Assembly (NCBI RefSeq): GCF_000971395.1 | Contig: NZ_BBME01000015.1 | Coordinates: forward strand, 124,001-188,000 | Origin: Demequina iriomotensis | GTDB taxonomy: Bacteria; Actinomycetota; Actinomycetes; Actinomycetales; Demequinaceae | DNA: 64,000 nt | Direction of reading: 5' to 3' | Part shown: one piece after another, positions 6,361-62,840 of the stretch | Position numbering within the stretch: the first letter of the stretch is position 1 | How the letters are laid out: each line of letters starts with the position of its first letter | The notes under the pieces: generated by a model | Told to the model about the DNA's origin: nothing | What the model saw: the letters and a program-made list of their open reading frames with translations, nothing else | Databases searched by the model: none | Translations under genes and position numbers: made by a program

Positions 6361-7472
6361 GGTCCGTTTCCGACCACGTCATGAGCACTCCCCGGGAGAA
6401 GCGCAGTCTCGTAGGCTTCGCACACACCCTGCCAGTTATAGTGCTTCAGAGCGCGCTCACGGGCCCCGGAGCCGAGGGCTTTTTGCGCTTCACGCGACTG
6501 TGCAACTTCGGAGAGAGCCTCAGCGATGTCGTGGAGCACCGGCTTTACGAATCGCGCAGAATCGGCAAGAACCTCCCTCGAGTACTTGGTATCTCGGGCC
6601 ACTACCGGAGCGCCGCACATCATTGCCTGCACCAAGGCCGGATTGGTGCCGCCGACGCTATGCCCATGGAAGTACGCACCCGCGTGCTGCCACAACGCGA
6701 ACAAGCGCGGGTCATCGCTGACGTGCCCCAGCCAATGGACATTCGCGTGGCGTTCCGCGAGCGCGGCTGCTCGCTCATCGAGTGGGCCGCCGTAGCCGCT
6801 CGACCCGACGATCACGACCGGCCTCTCCGCCGCAATCAGTTCGGCGGCGTCGAAGAACTCCTCGATCGTATTCTCAGGAACGAAGCGCGCCACCGCCAGC
6901 ACGTATTCGCCGCTCGCGAACTCATCCTTGAGCGGAAGTTCGGCGACCTCTTCGCCTCCGTACGGGATGAACGTCGTCGTTGCACCGAATAATTGCTCCC
7001 ACGTCTTGCCGATCTCTACCGAGTCCACCACGAGCACTGTGGCGTGAGTCGCGGTGAGCCGCGCCCCAAGACGAAAGACGAACTTGCCAAGGCGCGACCA
7101 CTTCGCCCGCTCCCATTCGATACCGTCGACGTTGACCACCGTGCGGATGCGCGCCAAACGCAGCAGCGGCAGCCAGTATCCGTTAGCGACGTTCATCACC
7201 AGTACCGCATCTGGCCGCTTGACGAGGGCGTGCAGCACCGCTGTCAAGCCGTGGGAAAGAGTGGAGAGTGCCGAGCTCTCGATGCCTGGCGTCTCGATTG
7301 ACCTCACACGCGGATCGCGCGTGGGGTCGTCGGCCTTCGTGCCGCCGCGACGACCATAGACCGTTACATCGTGCTCACGATCGGCAAGGAACGGCGCCAG
7401 TTTGCGGACGGCTGTCTCGAAGCCACCGTAGTAACTCGGGTAGCCGCGCGTGCCGATGATCGCGATCTTCAC
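6357..7472 (-). CDS. DUF1972/GT4 glycosyltransferase (rhamnosyltransferase-like)
   Basis: 371 residues. The N-terminus KIAIIGTRGYPSYYGGFETAV is the DUF1972 signature found in bacterial glycosyltransferases, several of which transfer rhamnose. A Rossmann-like C-terminal half has YVLAVARFVPENTIEEF and a glycine-rich GTNPALVQAMMCGAPVVA segment that binds the donor. The open frame begins at 7514, but GTG 7472 is chosen: AGGA is 6 nt before it and the KIAIIGTRG motif starts immediately after. With dTDP-rhamnose genes nearby, rhamnose transfer is possible but not shown. Confidence 0.88.
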   Translation of the reverse strand: MKIAIIGTRGYPSYYGGFETAVRKLAPFLADREHDVTVYGRRGGTKADDPTRDPRVRSIETPGIESSALSTLSHGLTAVLHALVKRPDAVLVMNVANGYWLPLLRLARIRTVVNVDGIEWERAKWSRLGKFVFRLGARLTATHATVLVVDSVEIGKTWEQLFGATTTFIPYGGEEVAELPLKDEFASGEYVLAVARFVPENTIEEFFDAAELIAAERPVVIVGSSGYGGPLDERAAALAERHANVHWLGHVSDDPRLFALWQHAGAYFHGHSVGGTNPALVQAMMCGAPVVARDTKYSREVLADSARFVKPVLHDIAEALSEVAQSREAQKALGSGARERALKHYNWQGVCEAYETALLPGSAHDVVGNGP

Positions 7473-46635: not shown

Positions 46636-46657
46636 CCGGCGCATCGTCCCGCGGTGG

Positions 46658-54144: not shown

Positions 54145-54804
54145 GTGGCCGTGAGCAAGGCTGACCAGGCGTACGACATCCTCAAGCATCGGATCATGGA
54201 CGGCGCCTACGGGCCGGGCCACCGGCTGGTCATCGACCAGCTCGCGCGCGAGCACGGTATCTCGTCCGTGCCCTGGCGGGAGTCGCTGCGGCGCCTCGAG
54301 GCCGAGGGCTGGGTCGACATCGTCCCCAACGTCGGCGCCCTGGTGAAGACGTTCGACACGGACGCCTTCGAGCGCTCGATGCGCCTGCTCGCCCGCCTCG
54401 AGGGGCTCGCGACGGCGCTGTCGGCCGCTCACCTCGACGCCGACGACATCGCTGAGGCCCGGCGCGTCAACAAGGCCGCCGCCGACGCGCTCGCGAGCTT
54501 CGACACGATGCGCTTCGGCAAGCTCAACCGCGAGTTCCACGAGCTGCTGTGCTCGCGCTGCGGGGACGACCGCCTGGTCGACCTGGTCCACCACGAGTGG
54601 ACGCGCATGGACGTGATCCGGCGCTCGGCGTTCTTCTACGCGCCGGGGCGCGCGCTCGCGTCGATCTCGGAGCACGACGCGATCCTCGACCTCATCGAGG
54701 GCGGCGCCGACCCGGAGATGATCGAGACCGCGGCGCGACGGCACGAGGTCAACAACCTCAACGCCATCAAGGAGTACGACCGCGAGCGCAACGAGGCCCG
54801 CTGA
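54145..54804 (+). CDS. GntR-family regulator (FCD domain)
   Basis: 219 residues. Winged helix with YDILKHRIMDGAYGPGHRLVIDQLAREHGIS and VPWRESLRRLEAEGWV (about 10-65), then an all-helical FCD domain with the metal/ligand His in NREFHELL and ISEHDAILDLI. GTG 54145 follows GGGAGGA. Convergent to the MetE-like gene; probably controls one of the catabolic transcripts in response to a small organic acid. Confidence 0.94.
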   Translation: MAVSKADQAYDILKHRIMDGAYGPGHRLVIDQLAREHGISSVPWRESLRRLEAEGWVDIVPNVGALVKTFDTDAFERSMRLLARLEGLATALSAAHLDADDIAEARRVNKAAADALASFDTMRFGKLNREFHELLCSRCGDDRLVDLVHHEWTRMDVIRRSAFFYAPGRALASISEHDAILDLIEGGADPEMIETAARRHEVNNLNAIKEYDRERNEAR

Positions 54805-54811
54805 CCTCGCG

Positions 54812-54922
54812 CCCCCAAGTTCGCTGCGCACGGTCTCAGGCGCGACACGCGGGCGAGGCGGCGGCTTGCGCCCCGATTCAGCGGCGCGTCGGAGCCCGGA
54901 CCGTGCTGAGCGAACTCGGGGG
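54812..54922. repeat. hairpin element A (repeat family)
   Basis: Imperfect palindrome of 111 nt: CCCCC/GGGGG, AGTTCGCT (54818-54825)/AGCGAACT (54909-54916), GCACGGTC (54828-54835)/GACCGTGC (54899-54906), and a third paired block around CGACACGC. Sits between the convergent GntR and MetE-like stops. Homologous in arm and loop to elements B and C. Confidence 0.8.
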
Positions 54923-54930
54923 AGGGCTCG

Positions 54931-55989
54931 CTACAACGCCTCCGACACCTCGCGGTGGAGCGCGAACAGGCCCGCCACGGCGTCGGCCGGCGCGCGACCG
55001 ATGCCGCATTCCGTCGCCACGCCGAAGCCGCTCACCACGGACGATGCGGCCGCGATGCGGCGCTCCGCGCCCTCGACGCCGTCCTGGCGGTGGATGAGCC
55101 CGAGGAACAGCGCGGTCTCGGCGGGCAGCCGGAGCGAGGCGAGCGGCGCGAAGTAGGCCTCGTCGTCACGCTCGATCGGCACGGGCAGGTGGATCCAGTC
55201 GATGCGGCGGTCGACGTCCTCGACCAGATTCTGGGCGAAGCGCACCAGGAAGCCCGCGTCGGTGGGCTCGACGTAGTGCTTCTCGCCGATGTCGCCGTAG
55301 CAGAGGTGATAGCCGAGCGCCACGGCGGACGGCACCTGCGCCGCCTGGCGCGCGGACCGGACCGCGAGCGCGCCGAGCACGTCCTCGCCGAACCAGCCGC
55401 GGTCCGTCGAGCCGCGGTAGCCCGCACCCTCGAGGTAGCCGAACTCGAGCGCGTTGTCCCACTGGATCGCGAGCCTCTCGTGCGGGATCGCCTCGAGGAT
55501 CTGCGCAAGCTCCTTGAACAGCGCGCGCTCGTACACCGGCTCGAAGCGCGCCCGGTCGGCGGCGCGCACCATCGAGCCGACCACGCCCACCGGCGTCGGC
55601 AGCGACACCTGGAAGCGCGTGGTCGCGGGGATGACGCCCTCGTCCTGGAGGCGCGCGAACACCGCCCACGAGGATAGCGCGGCCTCCGCGTAGCCCAGCG
55701 GCGCGAGCTCGAGCGCGTCAAGGTCGAGGTCCTCGGGCACCGTGATCTTCCGGATGTCGAGCGTGCCGACCATGATCGGATGGTCGCCCTCGCGGCCCAG
55801 GCCCGGCGTCTGCGCGAGGCGGTCGGGCTGGAACGCGACCCAGTGGAAGCGCTCGCCCACCTCGCCGTCGGGGATCCGCGCGAGGCGGTCGCCCAGCTCC
55901 GCGGCGGCGGTGCGCATCACGGTGTCGGCATCGGGCAGGTTGATGGAGCCGACGAGGTGAGCGCCGTGGGGGCGGGGGACGGCGATCAT
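54931..55989 (-). CDS. MetE-like (cobalamin-independent methionine synthase C-domain) protein
   Basis: 352 residues, a single barrel of the UROD/MetE superfamily, half the length of MetE. Zinc-type ligands remain: H228 and C230 in GYHLCYGD and C328 in ATECGIG, matching the H-x-C and late Cys of MetE. The N-terminus HGAHLVGSINLPD is the usual start of these short forms. Such proteins are proposed methyltransferases of unknown acceptor. In this operon it could take a methyl group from an O-methylated substrate (inference). Confidence 0.82.
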   Translation of the reverse strand: MIAVPRPHGAHLVGSINLPDADTVMRTAAAELGDRLARIPDGEVGERFHWVAFQPDRLAQTPGLGREGDHPIMVGTLDIRKITVPEDLDLDALELAPLGYAEAALSSWAVFARLQDEGVIPATTRFQVSLPTPVGVVGSMVRAADRARFEPVYERALFKELAQILEAIPHERLAIQWDNALEFGYLEGAGYRGSTDRGWFGEDVLGALAVRSARQAAQVPSAVALGYHLCYGDIGEKHYVEPTDAGFLVRFAQNLVEDVDRRIDWIHLPVPIERDDEAYFAPLASLRLPAETALFLGLIHRQDGVEGAERRIAAASSVVSGFGVATECGIGRAPADAVAGLFALHREVSEAL

Positions 55990-56224
55990 GAGTCTCTCTT
56001 CTCTCGGGGGACACGGTGCGCGACGCATCAGTCTGGCACCGTCCGCCGGTCTCCCCGACGCTCCGCCGCCGCCCCACGACCCCGCGCGCACCGCATCGTG
56101 CGAATCCGGGCGCCCAGCGCCCGCCCCCTCGTGACAGCACCAACGGATCTCGGGCCGACACGCCGGGCGGAACCGGCGCATCGCCCGCCTCACCGGCGTG
56201 TCGCGGCCAACTCCGTTGTCAGTG
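55990..56224. other. 235-bp spacer between DUF3500 and MetE-like genes
   Basis: Holds hairpin element B. The rest (55990-56130) shows only the Shine-Dalgarno of the MetE-like gene and no clear promoter. Confidence 0.5.
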
Positions 56225-56227
56225 TCA
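56132..56227. repeat. hairpin element B (repeat family)
   Basis: Two 35-nt arms (56132-56166 and 56193-56227): TGACA/TGTCA, AACGGA/TCCGTT and GACACGCCGG/CCGGCGTGTC pair exactly, with unpaired steps between. Arm length and loop (CCGGCGCATCGCCC) match element C. The right arm runs 3 bp into the DUF3500 stop codon. Confidence 0.85.
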
Positions 56228-57520
56228 GGTGAGGCGGGCCTGGCGGATGAACGCCTTGCCGTAGTCGTTGCCGTGCGGCAGGCGCAGCGTGGTGTGGACG
56301 TGGAAGCGCTGCGGCACCCGGTTCGACAGCCACACCCCCGCGTGGTGGTCGAGCTCGCCCAGGAAGGACGGCCCGTGGATGCGCAGGTAGAACGGCTGCG
56401 ATCCGTCGGTCGCGCCGTACCAGGCGAGGTGGGTGTCCGCGAGGTGGCGCTCGACGTCCGCGAGCGCGAGCGCCCGCTGATCGTCGGGAAGCAACAGGAG
56501 GAAGTCCCCGACGATCCCGCGCAGCAGCGCGCGCTGCGCCGTCGACAGACGGTCCGCACGGAGCCCCTCGTACGGGACGATGCGGTTGTCGCGGAACGCG
56601 CCGGCGACGTGGCGCTCGTCGGCGGGGTGGAGACGCCCCTCGGGCATCGCGGGGTCGAGCACCGAGGCGTACACGACCGCCTCGGACCGCTGCGCGTCGG
56701 TGAGCGACGAGGCCAGCGACACCGCGAGCGCCTCACGGTCCGCGAACAGCGGCGGCCGGGCCCCGTCGGACAGCGCCGGCTCGGCACCGATGAACACCGG
56801 GGCGATCACCTCCCGCCCGCCCACGAACACCACGTTGAGCGCGAGGTGGTGGCCGAACAGCTGCCAGCCCCACGCATCGTCCACCGACGGCGTGCCGTAC
56901 AGCGCGATCCAGTAGGAGCGATCGTTCATGAGGGTCGGCAGCCCGGTGAGCTCGCCGAGGTAGCCGTTGAGCCCCATGGCCTCCCGCGCCCGCGCGTAGC
57001 CGGGCGCGCTCAGCGAGGCCTCGACGAGCGCGAGGGCGGCGCGCACCGCGGGCTCGGGCAGCTCCTCGAGCCGCAGCCCGACGCGGTGGATGACGAACTC
57101 CGGGTTGGACCACGCGCGCCACTGCGGCGCGTCGAGCGGGTACGAGACCGCGGCGCGCGCCTCGTCCCCGAGCACGGCGAGCAGCGACTCCGCCGCGGCG
57201 ACCGGGGCCGCCGGGTTGGGCCGCGCGTCGCCGAGCGCCCAGACGTCGTCGCGGACCTCGCCGCCGGTGGTGATGCCGGCGAAGGGCTCCTCGTAGAGCG
57301 CCTGCCAGTCGCCCAGCAGGGCCTGGACGAAGTCGGGCTCGCGCTTGCGGCGCGAGAACTCCTCGTACCCGAGCCCGCGCCACGGCGCGAGGGTCGACGA
57401 CTCGAGCTCGTAGAGGAAGTCGCGGTAGGTGCGCGCGGTGAGCGTCACGGCCTCCTCGCGCGCGGTGACCCGCGCCGAGGAGAACGAGCCGTCGAGGTCG
57501 CGGTCCTGCTCGGTGGTCAT
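56225..57520 (-). CDS. DUF3500 protein
   Basis: 431 residues. The DUF3500 signature segments are present: a central GWQLFGHHLALNVVFVGG, VIAPVFIGAEPAL and the C-terminal HYHAGVW-like DHHAGVWLSNRVPQRFHVHTTLRLPHGNDYG. Function of the family is unknown. No signal peptide. ATG 57520 overlaps the ABC ATPase stop by ATGA, so it is made with the importer, which suggests it acts on the imported compound. Confidence 0.85.
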   Translation of the reverse strand: MTTEQDRDLDGSFSSARVTAREEAVTLTARTYRDFLYELESSTLAPWRGLGYEEFSRRKREPDFVQALLGDWQALYEEPFAGITTGGEVRDDVWALGDARPNPAAPVAAAESLLAVLGDEARAAVSYPLDAPQWRAWSNPEFVIHRVGLRLEELPEPAVRAALALVEASLSAPGYARAREAMGLNGYLGELTGLPTLMNDRSYWIALYGTPSVDDAWGWQLFGHHLALNVVFVGGREVIAPVFIGAEPALSDGARPPLFADREALAVSLASSLTDAQRSEAVVYASVLDPAMPEGRLHPADERHVAGAFRDNRIVPYEGLRADRLSTAQRALLRGIVGDFLLLLPDDQRALALADVERHLADTHLAWYGATDGSQPFYLRIHGPSFLGELDHHAGVWLSNRVPQRFHVHTTLRLPHGNDYGKAFIRQARLT

Positions 57521-59160
57521 GCGTGCCCCTCGGACGCTGCGCCGGAGGGCCGAGGCGCACCGGCGCCGTGCCCGCGGGGGCGCAGCTGCGCCCGTGAACC
57601 GCCCGCGTAGATCGCCTCGACGATGTCGTCGGGCGAGCACGGGCCCGCGAGCTCACGCGCGATCCGTCCCTCCTCGAAGACGAGCACGCGATCGCACAGG
57701 AGCGCCAGCTCGTTCTCATCCGAGCCAGCGACGAGGACGTGCAGCCCGGTCTCCGCCATCGCGTGGATCGCCTCGACGATCGTGTGGCGCGCTCCCACAT
57801 CGACGGCCTGCGTGGGCTCGTGAAGCAGCAGGAAGGTCGGGTCGGTGGCGAGCCACTTCGCGATGAACACCTTCTGCTGGTTGCCGCCCGAGTACGTGTT
57901 CACGAGGGCGTGCGGCTTGCGCGGCACCACGCCGAGCTTGTCGAACCACTCCCCCACCAGCGCGAGCTCGTTGGCGCGCGACACGGGGGCGAGCGGTGAG
58001 CCGGCGCGGGCGGTCTGCGCGAACGCGATGTTCTCGGCCACCGACTCGTGCATCGCGAGGCCCGAGTGCTCACGCCCCTCGGGCACGAGCGCGATGCCGG
58101 CGTCGATCGCGGCGACGGAGTCGAGCCCCGCAAGCGCGAGCCGACCGCTCGGCAGGACCACCGCGCCCGCCTCCGCACGGCTCGCGCCGGCAAGGAGGTA
58201 GGGAAGGTCGTCGTAGCCGGAGCCGCCGAGCCCGGTGAGGCCCACGATCTCCCCGCGTCGGACGGTGAACGAGACGTCACGGACGGCGAGACCCGTGACG
58301 CCGTCGACCGCGATGCTCGGCGTGTCCGGACCCAGCTCGAGGTGCTCCCGGGCGTCGAGGTCGCCCAGGTTGCGTCCCAGGATCAGCGAGGTGAGCTCCG
58401 CCTCGGTCATGTCGCCGACCTCGCGGCCGGACACGACGGAGCGGCCGTCGCGCAGGATGGTCACGCGGTCGGCCGCGCCGACCACCTCCTCGAGACGGTG
58501 CGTGATCATCAGCACCGAGGTGCCGGTCGCGACGATCTCGTCGAGGATCGCGAAGAAGTGCTCGAGCGACCGGCGGCTCAGCGCGCGGGTCGACTCGTCG
58601 AAGACGATGAGCCCCGTGCCTGGGGTCGCATCCTGGAGGGCGCGCGCGATGGCGACCGTCGCGCGGTCCTCCTCGAGCAGCGAGCCCACGGGCGCGTGGA
58701 GGGGTACGCGGCGACCGATGCGGGCGAACACCGCCTCCGCCTCCTGGCGTTCGCGCTCCCAATCGATACGGCGCGTGAAACGGGAACCACGCAGACGACC
58801 GACGCGCATGTTCTCCAACACCGAGAACTCGTCGACCAGGCCCAGGCTCTGGTGCACCACCGCCATGCCGTGGGCGCGCGACTCCTGCGGCAGCACCGGA
58901 AGGTCGAGCGCGCGTCCGTCGATCTCCACCGACGCGCCCGGGTCGGGGGTGTAGATCCCCGTGAGGATCTTCGCGACGGTCGACTTGCCGGAGCCGTTCT
59001 GCCCGACGAGCGCGTGGAGCTCGCCCGGTGCGACCTCGAGGCGCACATCGGTGAGGACGCGGTTGTCCCCGAAGGTCTTGTTCAGCGACGCCACGCGCAG
59101 GCGCGGCGCCGGAGGCGCGGGCGTGACCGCCCGCGCCTCCTGGTGTTGTGCCACGGTCAC
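57517..59160 (-). CDS. sugar-type ABC importer ATPase (two domains, atypical sites)
   Basis: 547 residues, RbsA/XylG layout. Domain 1: Walker A GQNGSGKST (53-61), but the signature is SLLEEDR (160-166) instead of LSxGQ, and Walker B is FDEST (188-192). Domain 2: degenerate P-loop GLGGSGYDD (310-318), intact signature YSGGNQQ (423-429), and Walker B LLLHEPT with His447 where Asp is usual. GTG 59160 overlaps the binding-protein stop. Drives uptake with 60437 and 59157; atypical residues may reflect altered ATP hydrolysis. Confidence 0.92.
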   Translation of the reverse strand: MTVAQHQEARAVTPAPPAPRLRVASLNKTFGDNRVLTDVRLEVAPGELHALVGQNGSGKSTVAKILTGIYTPDPGASVEIDGRALDLPVLPQESRAHGMAVVHQSLGLVDEFSVLENMRVGRLRGSRFTRRIDWERERQEAEAVFARIGRRVPLHAPVGSLLEEDRATVAIARALQDATPGTGLIVFDESTRALSRRSLEHFFAILDEIVATGTSVLMITHRLEEVVGAADRVTILRDGRSVVSGREVGDMTEAELTSLILGRNLGDLDAREHLELGPDTPSIAVDGVTGLAVRDVSFTVRRGEIVGLTGLGGSGYDDLPYLLAGASRAEAGAVVLPSGRLALAGLDSVAAIDAGIALVPEGREHSGLAMHESVAENIAFAQTARAGSPLAPVSRANELALVGEWFDKLGVVPRKPHALVNTYSGGNQQKVFIAKWLATDPTFLLLHEPTQAVDVGARHTIVEAIHAMAETGLHVLVAGSDENELALLCDRVLVFEEGRIARELAGPCSPDDIVEAIYAGGSRAQLRPRGHGAGAPRPSGAASEGHA

Positions 59161-60347
59161 GCCGCTCCCCACAGGGCCTTGAAGTCGTCCTTGAAGGTGG
59201 TGGGTCCGTACCACGAGCCGCTGGTCTCGCCCTCCTCGGAGAGGTCGACGTCGGCCATGCTGTCCGCGGTGAACAGTCGCACCGGGATGGTGTACTCCGG
59301 GAGCTCCAGACCGAGAGCGAGACGCATGGACGCGTCCGCGTAGACCCAGCCGTGGAACGCGGAGGCCTGGCCGGCCGCGACCTGGAGGCTGCCGCCCTGC
59401 AGCGCCTGGAGCGCGCCGAGCTGGGCCGAGCCCGTCATCAGGGTCACGTCCGTGGTCTTGCCCGCCGTGGTGATGCCCTGCTGCGTGGGCTGGAGGAACT
59501 GAGCGAACTGCGCGACCACGTAGTCGACATCCGGGTCCTTGAGCAGCGCCGCGGAGGTGGACGACGGGACCAGGTCGAAGCTGGCCGACGTGACCTCGTT
59601 GATGGTCGTGGTGCAGCCGGGGCACGTACCCTCGAGCGCGCCGATCGCCGCCTTCATGTAGAGGCCGGGCGTCATACCGTCCGCGGTCTGGTTGATGAGG
59701 ATGTCCGCGTCGCCGCCGGAGTCCTCACCCGCCCACTGCAGGAGCATGGTCGACATCTGCTCGCCGGCGCCCTCGACGTACGCGAGCGTCTCGTCCGCGG
59801 GCGCCTCGGGGTAGGGCTTCTGGTTGCCCACGATGACCGGGATGCCCGCGGCCCTCGCGTCGTCATAGGCCTGGGAGACCATGGCGTACGAGATCGCGTC
59901 GCCGATGATCGCCATCGCGTCGGCGTTGACGGCCTGCGTGATGCACTTGCCGATCTCGGTCGGGTTGCCCTGACCGTTGCACGTCTGGACGTTGATCCCC
60001 ACGGACTCGAGCGCCTCGGTGACCTGAGGGCCGGTGATCGCGAACTGCGGCGACTGCTGCGTGATCGGGATGTAGTAGACGGTCTTGCCCTCGAGCGAGC
60101 TCGCGTCGATCGGCTCCTCAGGAAGCGGGTAGGCATCCATCGGGGCCATGTACTCGGCGAGCGCCGAGGTGGGCGCGGCCGGCTCCGACGTCGCCGTCGT
60201 GGGCTCCGCTGCGGAGGAGCCGGAGGTCTCCGCGCCGGGGTCGGTGTCGGACGCGCACGCTGCGAGCGAGAGGGTGGCGATCGCGAGCGCGCTCGCCACA
60301 CCCATGCCGCGCAGGCGGCGGGCGGAGGTGAGAACCGGGGACTTCAT
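59157..60347 (-). CDS. ABC importer substrate-binding lipoprotein (RbsB-like)
   Basis: 396 residues. Signal with lipobox LSLAAC, Cys31, a Ser/Thr/Ala linker, then a type 1 periplasmic-binding fold: VYYIPITQQSPQFAI, MAIIGDAISYAMVSQAYDDARAAGIPVIV. AGGAGT lies before ATG 60347. Ligand unknown; the RbsB class mostly binds sugars but also other small polar compounds. Upstream of the ATPase in one operon. Confidence 0.92.
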   Translation of the reverse strand: MKSPVLTSARRLRGMGVASALAIATLSLAACASDTDPGAETSGSSAAEPTTATSEPAAPTSALAEYMAPMDAYPLPEEPIDASSLEGKTVYYIPITQQSPQFAITGPQVTEALESVGINVQTCNGQGNPTEIGKCITQAVNADAMAIIGDAISYAMVSQAYDDARAAGIPVIVGNQKPYPEAPADETLAYVEGAGEQMSTMLLQWAGEDSGGDADILINQTADGMTPGLYMKAAIGALEGTCPGCTTTINEVTSASFDLVPSSTSAALLKDPDVDYVVAQFAQFLQPTQQGITTAGKTTDVTLMTGSAQLGALQALQGGSLQVAAGQASAFHGWVYADASMRLALGLELPEYTIPVRLFTADSMADVDLSEEGETSGSWYGPTTFKDDFKALWGAA

Positions 60348-60436
60348 CGGTGGTACTCCTTCTTGACTACGTTGACAATCAGGACTGCGGTGGTGCGTCG
60401 TGGATGATGGTGGACGGTGACGCGGTGGTCGCGCCC

Positions 60437-61483
60437 TCAGCGGGCCCTGCGGGACAGGACCGTCGAGATGGTGACGGCGATCACCAGGACGCCTCCGTAG
60501 AAGACGGAGGACACCCACGAGGTGCCGCCGAGCAGCTGGAGCCCGAGCACACCCGTCGCGAGGAAGTACACCGCGATGAGCGTGCCGAGCGGGTTGAAGC
60601 GACCGGGCTGCAGGATCGCGGTGCCGAGGAACGTGGCAGCGAACATGGGCAGCAGGTAGCTGTGGGAGACCGAGGGGTCGTAGCCGCCCGACGCCGCGGC
60701 CGTGAGCACGCCGCCCACGCCCGCGATCGCACCGCCCGCGACGAACGCGAGGAAGCGGATCCGGGTGACGGGCACACCGGCGAGGCGGCTGACCTCGCGG
60801 TTGGCGCCGACGAAGCGCATGTTGCGACCGAGCGGCGTGAACGCGAGCAGGTACGCGAACGCGAGCATCAGGATGAGGCCCAGGTAGAAGCTCACGGGCA
60901 GGCCCAGGATCTTGTAGAGCGCGATCTGCGAGAACTCTCGGGGCAGACCGGCGACGGGCACCAGGTTGCTCGACCACAGCGCGATGCCGGTGATGAAGGT
61001 GCCCATGCCGAGCGTGACGACGATGGTGTTGACCCCCACCTTCACCACGAGCCACGCGTTCAGCACCCCCACCGCGGTGGCGGCGACGACGGCGGCGACG
61101 GCCGCGAGCCACACGTTCCACCCGTGGTTGACGGTGAGCACCGGCACCAGGATCGCCGCGAGCCCAAAGTTCGAGGCGAGGGACATGTCGACGAACTCGC
61201 CGACGATGATGGTGCACAGGAGCGCCGCCGCGAGGAAGACGAGCGCCTGCTGGCTGCCGAGGATCGTCGCGAACGTGCCGGCGTTGAGGAAGGTGTCCGG
61301 CAGGAGCGCGCCGTACAGCGCGATCATGAGCGCCCACACGATGATCACCGCGTAGCGCGCGACCCCGCTGCCGCCGGTGAGCCACGACGGAAGCGCGCGT
61401 TTGGTGGTGTTCTCCGCGTGGGTCGCGGCGGCCGCGGCGACGTCCGCGCCGCGGGGCGTCTCGGTGGTCGAGGTGTCGGTCAT
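60437..61483 (-). CDS. ABC importer permease (RbsC-like)
   Basis: 348 residues, about 8-10 helices. GEFVDMSLASNFGLAAILVPVL and FVGANREVSRLAGVPVTRIRFLAFVAGGAIAGVGGVL are the conserved permease blocks, the latter containing the EAA-like coupling loop. First gene of the importer operon, preceded by a 310-bp spacer with an operator-like palindrome and element C. Confidence 0.93.
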   Translation of the reverse strand: MTDTSTTETPRGADVAAAAATHAENTTKRALPSWLTGGSGVARYAVIIVWALMIALYGALLPDTFLNAGTFATILGSQQALVFLAAALLCTIIVGEFVDMSLASNFGLAAILVPVLTVNHGWNVWLAAVAAVVAATAVGVLNAWLVVKVGVNTIVVTLGMGTFITGIALWSSNLVPVAGLPREFSQIALYKILGLPVSFYLGLILMLAFAYLLAFTPLGRNMRFVGANREVSRLAGVPVTRIRFLAFVAGGAIAGVGGVLTAAASGGYDPSVSHSYLLPMFAATFLGTAILQPGRFNPLGTLIAVYFLATGVLGLQLLGGTSWVSSVFYGGVLVIAVTISTVLSRRAR

Positions 61484-61581
61484 GCTGGGAAAGCTCCGTT
61501 CGTCGCGTCGTTGCGAACTGTGCGCACCGCGATGTGCGCCTGGCCTGCCGGAGGGTTCCGGAGGAGTGACCCCCGAAACCC

Positions 61582-61597
61582 CACACGGCCTCGTGTG
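61582..61597. promoter_or_regulatory. operator-like palindrome CACACG-N4-CGTGTG
   Basis: Perfect 6-4-6 inverted repeat about 100 bp upstream of the permease start, just downstream of a TATACG -10-like box on the coding strand. Likely target of the GntR, MarR or LysR regulator nearby. Confidence 0.55.
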
Positions 61598-61680
61598 CGA
61601 AATCGTATAGGGAATGGAGAGGGATGACTAGAGCCGATCAAGGGACCAAGGTCCCGATTCGGCAAAGACCCGGTCGCCGC

Positions 61681-61781
61681 CCTGACAGTGCGCACGGATT
61701 CGGTCACGACACGCCGGACGCAGCCGGCGCATCGTCCCAGATCCACGGCGTGTTGCTGCGAGATCCGTGCGCACTGTCGGG
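61681..61781. repeat. hairpin element C (repeat family)
   Basis: GACAGTGCGCACGGAT (61684-61699) is exactly complementary to 61763-61778, and ACACGCCG (61709-61716) to CGGCGTGT (61746-61753). The internal steps have equal length on both arms. Begins 13 bp past the amidohydrolase stop. Best-preserved copy of the family. Confidence 0.85.
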
Positions 61782-61793
61782 GCGGGCGGGACA

Positions 61794-62840
61794 TCAGACC
61801 GGCAGGTTGAACATCTTCTTGGCGTTGCCGAAGAGGATCGCCTCGCGGTCCGCGTCGGAGATGTCGAGCTCGTCCTTCACGAACGAGACCCCCTGGCTCA
61901 TCCAGGAGTAGAACACCGGGAAGCTCGACCCGAACATGTAGTGGTCCGCGCCGTTGATCCGCAGCGCGGCCTCGACCTGCTCCTTGCCCCACGAGTGCGG
62001 GTGGGTCATGTCGAAGAAGATGTTGTTCTCGAGGTACCTCTTGATCGCCTCGCCGCCCGTGGGGTCGAGCCGCTGCATCGCCTCGGCCTTCGGGGGACGA
62101 TGCGGCGTCAGCAGGGCAGTGTTGGCGAACCAGTTGCCACCGAACATCGTGTGCGTGAACTTGAGGTTCGGGAACCTGTCGAACATCCCCGAGAACAGCT
62201 CGCGGCCCACGGCCGTGGCCTGGTCCTGGATGCGGCCGAACTCACGGCGGAAGTTCGTGTAGTCGATGATCGAGCGCCACTCCACCGGCAGCGGGGTGTG
62301 GTGGACGATGACCGGCACGTCGAGGTCGTCGATGACGGAGAGGTACTCCTCGAAGGCCTCGTCGTCCAGGTAGAGCTGCCCGTAGTGGCACGCGAGCTGG
62401 ACCGCGACGGCGCCGTTGTCGAGGCAGCGCTTGAGCTCGTCGATGTTGGCCTGACCGCCCCACGGCGGCACGCACGCGGTCGAGAACAGCCGGCCGCCCG
62501 ATTTCGCGACGATCTCGTGGGCGTTGTCGTTGACCGCCTTGCAGGTGTCGAGCCGGAGCCACTCCTGCCACACGGGCACGCGCATGATGCCGTAGTCGAC
62601 GCCGGCCTCGTCCATGGCGCGGAGCTTGGCGTCGACGGAGTAGTCGCCCTCGACGTAGTTGAGGTTCTGGTAGCCCTTGGGCTTCTCGAGGATGAGCTGC
62701 TTGCGGCCGTCCTCCATCTCCTTGACGGTCGCGATCTCCCCGAAGCCGCGCGGGGCGGTCGAGAGGAAGCCGTCGAGCATCGTCGGGTTGTCGAAGAGGT
62801 CCTCGGGCAGGTGGTGGATGTTGATATCGATGACAGGCAT
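61794..62840 (-). CDS. amidohydrolase-2 (ACMSD-like) family protein with altered metal site
   Basis: 348 residues. The barrel pattern, VIVHHTPLP and FTHTMFGGN His blocks, and the C-terminal ILFGNAKKMF match the decarboxylase/hydratase branch of amidohydrolase-2. The first metal motif, normally DxHxH, reads IDINIHH (N7, H9, H10), and the usual GSD near the end reads GSS (Ser306 for Asp). Two canonical ligands are therefore replaced. Relatives act on aromatic or muconate acids. Divergent from MarR with operator-rich spacer. Confidence 0.85.
   Translation of the reverse strand: MPVIDINIHHLPEDLFDNPTMLDGFLSTAPRGFGEIATVKEMEDGRKQLILEKPKGYQNLNYVEGDYSVDAKLRAMDEAGVDYGIMRVPVWQEWLRLDTCKAVNDNAHEIVAKSGGRLFSTACVPPWGGQANIDELKRCLDNGAVAVQLACHYGQLYLDDEAFEEYLSVIDDLDVPVIVHHTPLPVEWRSIIDYTNFRREFGRIQDQATAVGRELFSGMFDRFPNLKFTHTMFGGNWFANTALLTPHRPPKAEAMQRLDPTGGEAIKRYLENNIFFDMTHPHSWGKEQVEAALRINGADHYMFGSSFPVFYSWMSQGVSFVKDELDISDADREAILFGNAKKMFNLPV

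Follow-up and report, generated by a model that had tools for sequence, protein, structure and literature searches.

We describe a set of imperfect hairpins of about 100 bp in Demequina iriomotensis, represented by three elements, A, B and C, in a 64,000-nucleotide stretch of contig NZ_BBME01000015.1 (positions 124,001 to 188,000, hereafter the window). The genome (G000) comprises 3,164,437 bases in 27 contigs, of which the window is C13:124001-188000. The three elements stand at gene ends, and hairpins of the same kind frame a gene for a putative nuclease elsewhere on the contig.

Three hairpins at gene ends

Elements A, B and C are real hairpins, folded beyond chance. Matches to a covariance model were found on the minus strand at 54815-54919 (A), 56130-56229 (B, core 56133-56226) and 61681-61781 (C, core 61684-61778), where a preliminary description had placed them, and on neither strand did any of 200 dinucleotide shuffles fold as well, the z-scores being -4.9/-7.9 for A, -3.8/-4.0 for B and -8.7/-6.5 for C. 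The same description had ascribed a common arm and loop sequence to the set. The loop CCGGCGCATCG is indeed common to B and C, and GCACGG is found in A and C, but B carries CAACGG. The outer arms of A read GAGTTCGCT..GCACGGT and ACCGTGC..AGCGAACT, and A is a member of hairpin family II, whereas B and C belong to family I. A short core motif is uninformative on its own: CGACACGCCGG, with one mismatch allowed, has 13 occurrences in the window, where 11.7 are expected. No Rfam family matched the window at its gathering score.

Gene neighbours were taken from our own simple codon-usage gene caller, which misses some genes. Each element lies within 15 nucleotides (nt) of a minus-strand stop, as previously proposed: A at 11 nt, C at 12 nt from the stop of an amidohydrolase gene (61794-62840, minus strand), and B overlapping the stop codon of a DUF3500 gene (56225-57520, minus strand). 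On the other flank a plus-strand stop lies 10 nt from element A, which is located between a GntR/FCD regulator gene (54145-54804, plus strand) and a convergent gene without a Pfam family (54931-55989, minus strand).

Copies in the genome and in the genus

To count further copies we used the covariance model, which was built from 23 copies that match by construction. It identified 68 distinct places in the 3.16 Mb genome at 23.9 bits or more; the 137 strand-wise matches at E <= 1 correspond to these places and two weak ones that were left out, most places being matched on both strands because the element is a palindrome. A BLAST search with element C recovered at least 49 places, and a family II copy used as query added one more, C13:85502. 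Among 37 Demequina genomes (this one included), 34 contain at least one match at E <= 0.01 and three contain none, while matches in other families of the same order were present in 7 of 22 genomes and were mostly single and weak. Across the genome collection, the arm pattern was found in 48 stretches, 47 of them named Demequina and the other a Rhodospirillales metagenome-assembled genome in which it is probably due to chance. The hairpins had been likened to repetitive extragenic palindromic (REP) sequences or miniature inverted-repeat transposable elements (MITEs), or else to an RNA-level 3' element; the first part of this comparison, palindromes dispersed close to the 3' ends of genes, in many copies here and in relatives, agrees with these results. 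Four contigs of the genome end at such copies, three (among C7, C9, C14 and C16) starting or finishing within an element and one ending 13 nt past a partial element, and the hairpins probably broke the assembly at these points.

The own-genome tallies, which omit C9:646-746, comprise 66 places. Of these, 33 have co-directional gene neighbours, 25 convergent and 5 divergent ones, and the other 3 are at contig ends. A stop codon is faced by 60 of the 66, and 50 lie within 25 nt of a stop or overlap it; in 8 copies a TGA stop is the element's own edge (distance -5). This distribution would be expected if the hairpins were functional 3' elements, that is, bidirectional terminators or messenger RNA 3'-end hairpins selected at conserved sites, with the nuclease either unrelated or a lodger. 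Their location just past stop codons, their scarcity between divergent compared with convergent genes and their strong folds on both strands all suit such a role, whereas a long, near-identical sequence at dozens of sites requires copying, and the orientation of the elements, judged by eye, seems independent of transcription.

Anatomy of the hairpin families

The hairpin families (I, II, III, IV and others) have in common an inner motif, CGACACGCCG, a near-fixed total length and a free loop, and they differ in their outer arms. Family I follows the plan CCN-GACA-N4-CAACGGA-N8-CGACACGCCG-loop-inner arm-N8-TCCGTTG-N4-TGTC-NGG. Among 133 distinct copies from this genome and its relatives, which come from related species and are hence dependent, positions 1-4 (GACA) and 11-15 (ACGGA) are nearly invariant and positions 5-8 freely variable. 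When core lengths between 62 and 182 bp were permitted, 96 distinct family I copies measured 86 bp (one copy), 94 bp (7), 95 bp (49), 96 bp (35) and 97 bp (4). The arms of this family come in exchangeable types, with the inner motif either facing inward or directly repeated, a distinction that is partly our own reading.

Family II consists, in this genome, of A and five more places, with outer arms GAGTTCGCTCCGCACGGT. A third family was recognized by eye in genome G005 (L127, about 7150-7290). Family IV of D. subtropica is 116 bp long in all 22 examined copies of 27 places, with the arm spacing left free, and in genome G026 it is 116 bp long in 10 of 11 distinct copies and 115 bp in one. It is laid out as a pair of direct arms with a spacing of 21 bp, CGGCGTGTCGtCGGCGTGTCG, a stretch of about 40 nt unlike from copy to copy, and an inverted arm; folding of the variable region gave no signal (mean z -0.24). 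This family is multi-copy and full-form in only two of 44 genomes, a distribution that does not favour a selected 3' element.

Two further observations concern hairpin form. Lengths of 95 and 116 bp are near 9 and 11 helical turns, which we offer as a remark only, and genome G021 (L246, L248, L250, L252 and L254) contains an additional hairpin type with the outer arm CTCCACACA and a double CGGCGTGTCG block as in family IV.

Sequence, rather than pairing, is held

The preliminary description had taken paired changes in the stems as a sign of selection for structure. The copies do not support this, as the arms of family I present no net covariation: 56 own copies have 1418 paired cells against a shuffled-arm mean of 1410.7 and a largest shuffled value of 1453, and total pairing in the set of 133 copies has a z-score of -0.03. 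In that set the only compensated positions are 4, 9 and 10 (z 9.2, 5.2 and 7.4), and anti-complementarity marks positions 16 (z -3.1), 19 (z -6.9), 21 (z -3.5) and 23 (z -3.7). The stem difference between A and C, cited earlier as covariation, separates two families and is not a change within one. Pairing of the stem past the core was not above shuffles.

Sequence at fixed positions is held beyond mere pairing. In 34 orthologue pairs in which the element is kept, identity reaches 99% at positions 1-4, 97% at positions 9-15 and 91% at positions 24-33, compared with 54% at positions 5-8 and 72% at the loop edge; the flanks, aligned with generous shift, reach 63%. We rejected RNA structure as the main cause because the arms lack overall covariation and Rfam gave no match. 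For the broader proposal of a selected 3' element these data cut both ways: the constraint on kept orthologues relative to their flanks is in its favour, and the lack of net covariation, with mismatches kept, is against it.

Flanking target duplications, another suggestion of the preliminary description, were looked for and did not appear. An abutting direct repeat of at least 3 nt was present in 0 of 55 family I copies (0.3 expected), and in family IV in 1 of 22 copies at 3 nt (0.6 expected). Such results bear on whether the hairpins are ordinary REP/REPIN sequences or MITEs mobilised in trans by a conventional transposase. Such an origin would fit the dispersal of inverted-repeat elements and the sharp edges of their copies, as well as left and right sub-terminal parts that differ, a frequent feature of transposon ends. 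Nevertheless, besides the missing target duplications, the Y1 transposase (PF01797) was found in 0 of 41 Demequina genomes, other transposase families not having been searched for, while a control search was positive in 5 of 14 known genomes; a REP-RAYT system was rejected on this ground. Copies also replace resident elements at shared sites, as described below, and overall we regard mobilisation by a conventional transposase as very improbable.

Shared sites and turnover of hairpin families

We compared the sites of the elements among related species, using relatives' loci chosen mainly for holding elements. For 41 own places one or more relatives have an element at the corresponding position, and for 34 of them D. 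gelatinilytica does; because of the way in which the loci were chosen, this count is a lower bound and says little on absences. Element C is also present at the orthologous places in D. gelatinilytica and genome G005, and the place orthologous to A in D. gelatinilytica is occupied by a family I hairpin. Two absences are clear, that of B in D. gelatinilytica, where the orthologous place has no element, and that of C12:148488 in D. subtropica. The conservation of sites between species is again compatible with a selected 3' element.

The sequences at these sites, on the other hand, have turned over. Over 54 orthologue pairs, with the orthologue ranked among 64 own paralogues, it was among the nearest three in 25 pairs, at ranks 4-25 in 14 and at rank 26 or beyond in 15. 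All six own family II places are family I in a relative (five in D. gelatinilytica, one in G025). Judged by eye, the hairpin of G016 at L071 is family II-like, at a place that carries family I here. Two seeming absences in D. subtropica proved to be family IV. Of the 22 family IV copies in that species, 12 have flanks among the loci of this genome or D. gelatinilytica, and 11 of these sit where both genomes have family I or II, two of the 11 being the hairpins of the nuclease cassette itself. Recently copied paralogues are alike across the whole core, including the loop, and not in their flanks. The variable positions 5-8 were considered as site-derived, kept while the interior is swapped, and this was rejected, with 42 of 112 matches in replaced pairs against 42.1 expected.

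Two loci show larger differences. At the site of A, genome G005 (L127:3411-7311) has instead about 3.9 kb with three called genes and a hairpin of another family after the last gene. In D. subtropica and D. gelatinilytica two elements enclose a gene for an extracytoplasmic function (ECF) sigma factor together with another gene (L161:2499-4310 and L152:1399-3213), while the counterpart in this genome, C19:473006, is a single element without those genes; the two D. gelatinilytica elements agree over the 80 bases compared. We tentatively read this cargo as the result of recombination between repeats.

A nuclease gene framed by hairpins

Outside the window, the two own family II places C13:85502 and C13:86583 enclose a gene for a 279-amino-acid protein that combines an AbiEi_4 winged helix with a DUF559 domain. 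When 282 loci (1.46 Mb summed, overlaps included) were searched with a profile built from three of these proteins, four distinct units and no others were identified, and in each of the four genomes the gene lies between two hairpins of the same family: II in this genome, I in D. gelatinilytica, and IV in D. subtropica and G026. Longer stretches totalling 215.6 kb, taken from five other genome sets, yielded the G026 unit as the sole match.

All four units occupy one locus, between a phosphoribosyltransferase gene (PF00156), named hpt from synteny with tilS, and the gene for the AAA-M41 protease FtsH. The flanking DNA is alignable to the outer hairpin edges, with identities on the two sides of 92%/89% between this genome and D. 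subtropica, 94%/95% between D. gelatinilytica and D. subtropica, and 92%/88% between D. gelatinilytica and this genome, and the FtsH and phosphoribosyltransferase proteins are 87-99% identical across the locus. Between these constant neighbours the hairpins and the nuclease gene have been exchanged together. The nucleases of different families share low identity (47% for own II and D. gelatinilytica I, 37% for own II and D. subtropica IV, 34% for D. gelatinilytica I and D. subtropica IV), and the two family IV proteins, from D. subtropica and G026, are 63% identical over 145 amino acids; by these comparisons the nuclease allele therefore follows the hairpin family, not the species. Such tracking would be hard to account for if the hairpins were 3' elements and the nuclease a bystander, and taking all of the evidence together we consider that explanation unlikely.

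The protein was modelled with AlphaFold2 from three sequences, giving a mean model confidence (pLDDT) of 76 and about 93 for the winged helix. The best fold match of the predicted structure is the AbiEi antitoxin 6y8q (E 4.3e-5), and a sequence profile matched 3hrl, an endonuclease-like protein, at E 5.7e-4. The AbiEi-type winged helix at the N-terminus and the match to 6y8q could instead indicate a regulator or defence protein whose dispersed binding sites are the hairpins, the families changing through co-evolving specificity and ordinary ectopic gene conversion, not homing. The spaced invariant arm blocks GACA-N4-(C)AACGGA are what would be expected of a double-strand binding site, and evolution of REPs by gene conversion was reportedly proposed by Higgins in 1988. 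This proposal is difficult to reconcile with sites past stop codons, not at promoters, with the presence of a nuclease domain, and with hairpins that bracket the gene and are swapped along with it, and we judge it distinctly unlikely.

Homologues beyond Demequina

Plasmid and phage records were searched by protein, irrespective of hairpins, and five records were obtained. The homologue of Actinomyces oris lies between two 122-bp hairpins that are 88% alike and have no sequence relationship to the Demequina hairpins; of the two, the downstream hairpin overlaps the annotated end of the gene. In MT837367.1, a faecal scaffold labelled as phage, the homologue is partly bracketed, with a hairpin about 10 nt past its stop (L286:3892-3997) and a matching arm upstream (2780-2806).

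A proposed mechanism

In our proposal, Demequina carries small palindromic mobile elements of which A, B and C are non-autonomous copies, and each family depends on a cognate AbiEi_4-DUF559 nuclease; we assign to this a probability of roughly 0.58. Each family would rely on the nuclease encoded at hpt-ftsH between two of its own hairpins. The nuclease may read the arms through its winged helix and cut resident hairpins, the common inner motif being the candidate cut site, and repair from a cognate copy would overwrite the resident hairpin, from family I to II in this genome and from I to IV in D. subtropica. Occasionally repair might seed a site not occupied before. The nuclease gene and its two hairpins would be swapped as one cassette, and the fixed length and kept mismatches would reflect requirements of recognition. 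Copies presumably stay just past stop codons since they are tolerated there, and are perhaps useful as 3' ends. The comparisons establish multiple copies of fixed length, sites shared between species, turnover of both subtype and family in place, copying of the entire core, bracketing of the nuclease gene and an allele that tracks the hairpin family; binding, cutting, copying through repair and an advantage at gene ends are inferred.

Several observations weigh against this model. Among the 22 family IV copies, ten do not coincide with a known family I or II site and one is at a site without an element, and no clear target emerged from the empty sites. Most hairpins of this genome still belong to family I, though its cassette is of family II, and the nuclease frame of G026 is broken. 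The finding that all four units are bracketed is biased, because the Demequina loci were mostly chosen for holding hairpins; in the hairpin-independent test one of the five records is clearly bracketed (A. oris) and one partly (MT837367.1), and the three Tsukamurella records have no matching hairpin pair around the homologue. The A. oris hairpins show no spread in their 415 kb record, in which they account for four places, fitting two palindromes on both strands. As to the enzyme itself, DUF559 is below the Pfam cut-off in the D. gelatinilytica protein and MTES_1575 is below it in all three, the C-terminal nuclease part is poorly modelled (pLDDT about 50-75, and 35-57 in the other four models), and the catalytic domain of the homing endonuclease I-Bth0305I is a weak, fifth fold match of the predicted structure (E 0.47, probability 0.82).

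A wider claim, which we put forward tentatively and at somewhat less than even odds, is that these loci represent a new selfish class: a DUF559 (Vsr-like) nuclease framed by cognate hairpins, with hairpin-only satellites that overwrite rivals and cassette exchange at one locus, and with relatives that use unrelated hairpins in, for example, Actinomyces. Rival hairpin families would compete for the same set of post-stop sites, their satellites being of fixed length with free loops. If so, DUF559, a common nuclease family without a known function, would be an engine of dispersed bacterial palindromes and a second solution alongside REP-RAYT. Stable sites would be explained despite the turnover of sequence family, and the elements would be a kind of selfish DNA so far undescribed. 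A literature search recovered no link of DUF559 or AbiEi to dispersed hairpins, although preprints and many journals were outside its scope and absence from print is not thereby established; a search on palindromes in Demequina returned nothing evidently related. The locus in four genomes, at which hairpins and nuclease change between constant neighbours, makes the spread of palindromes and their persistence at gene ends directly testable, a single purified protein and a panel of DNAs of about 100 bp being enough.

An over-represented motif

In the window no 10-mer is more over-represented than GGACGATGCG, which has 18 occurrences against 0.83 expected (e.g. at 46640, 51812, 61728 and 62097); this decamer is visible in a second-order Markov test and hidden by the highest-order one. 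It is also the top 10-mer in element-masked Demequina DNA (124 against 3.7 expected in 240 kb, in which some relatives' loci overlap). The sequence GGGACGATGCG occurs 496 times in this genome, evenly across strands, compared with 2 for a reversed control, and it is found 120-884 times in 13 of 37 genomes of the genus, 1-52 times in the other 24 and 1-8 times in 22 genomes of other families. From these counts it looks like a DNA uptake sequence; a literature search returned no report joining DNA uptake sequence, Actinobacteria and over-representation. The motif CGATGCG or its complement is present in the hairpin loops of 22 of 65 own elements (e.g. at 61728), unaltered in three orthologues of C, and elements are common in motif-poor genomes too (G002, G027 and G033).

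Comparison with known systems

In integrons, the attC site is an imperfect hairpin past a stop codon, with two paired boxes, an unpaired spacer and a variable end. The Demequina elements are likewise imperfect hairpins immediately 3' of stop codons, but they are dispersed, not arrayed, and of fixed length. Integron attC was rejected as an identity for them, an integrase above the TIGR02249 cut-off being found in 0 of 44 genomes and sub-threshold matches occurring also in all 14 control genomes.

A further likeness in form is to the ERIC/IRU, NEMIS, RUP and BOX MITEs, which are long imperfect palindromes of about 100-127 bp, intergenic and often transcribed. ERIC falls within this length range, and its sites differ between species. 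Demequina, unlike these elements, has several outer-arm families in one genus, shared sites with turnover, no target duplication and a linked nuclease locus.

EDxHD is listed as one of six homing families (PMC6083498). Homing endonucleases of this kind (EDxHD/Vsr-like, such as I-Bth0305I) resemble the Demequina protein in a weakly similar predicted nuclease fold and in the proposed spread through cutting and templated repair. The Demequina case differs from them in that it involves no intron or intein, and what spreads is chiefly a short hairpin, present at dozens of places, rather than the gene alone.

Finally, a RAYT gene is flanked by its REP repeats. The present system is alike in having dispersed palindromes past coding regions and an enzyme gene bracketed by repeats, here with an unrelated enzyme, in four Demequina genomes and A. 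oris. REPs, too, are mostly found between convergent or co-directional genes, just past coding regions, according to one study (PMC3733652). In contrast to REP/REPIN-RAYT systems, the enzyme in Demequina is AbiEi_4-DUF559 and not Y1, the elements have a fixed length of 95-116 bp, and other families are replaced at shared sites.

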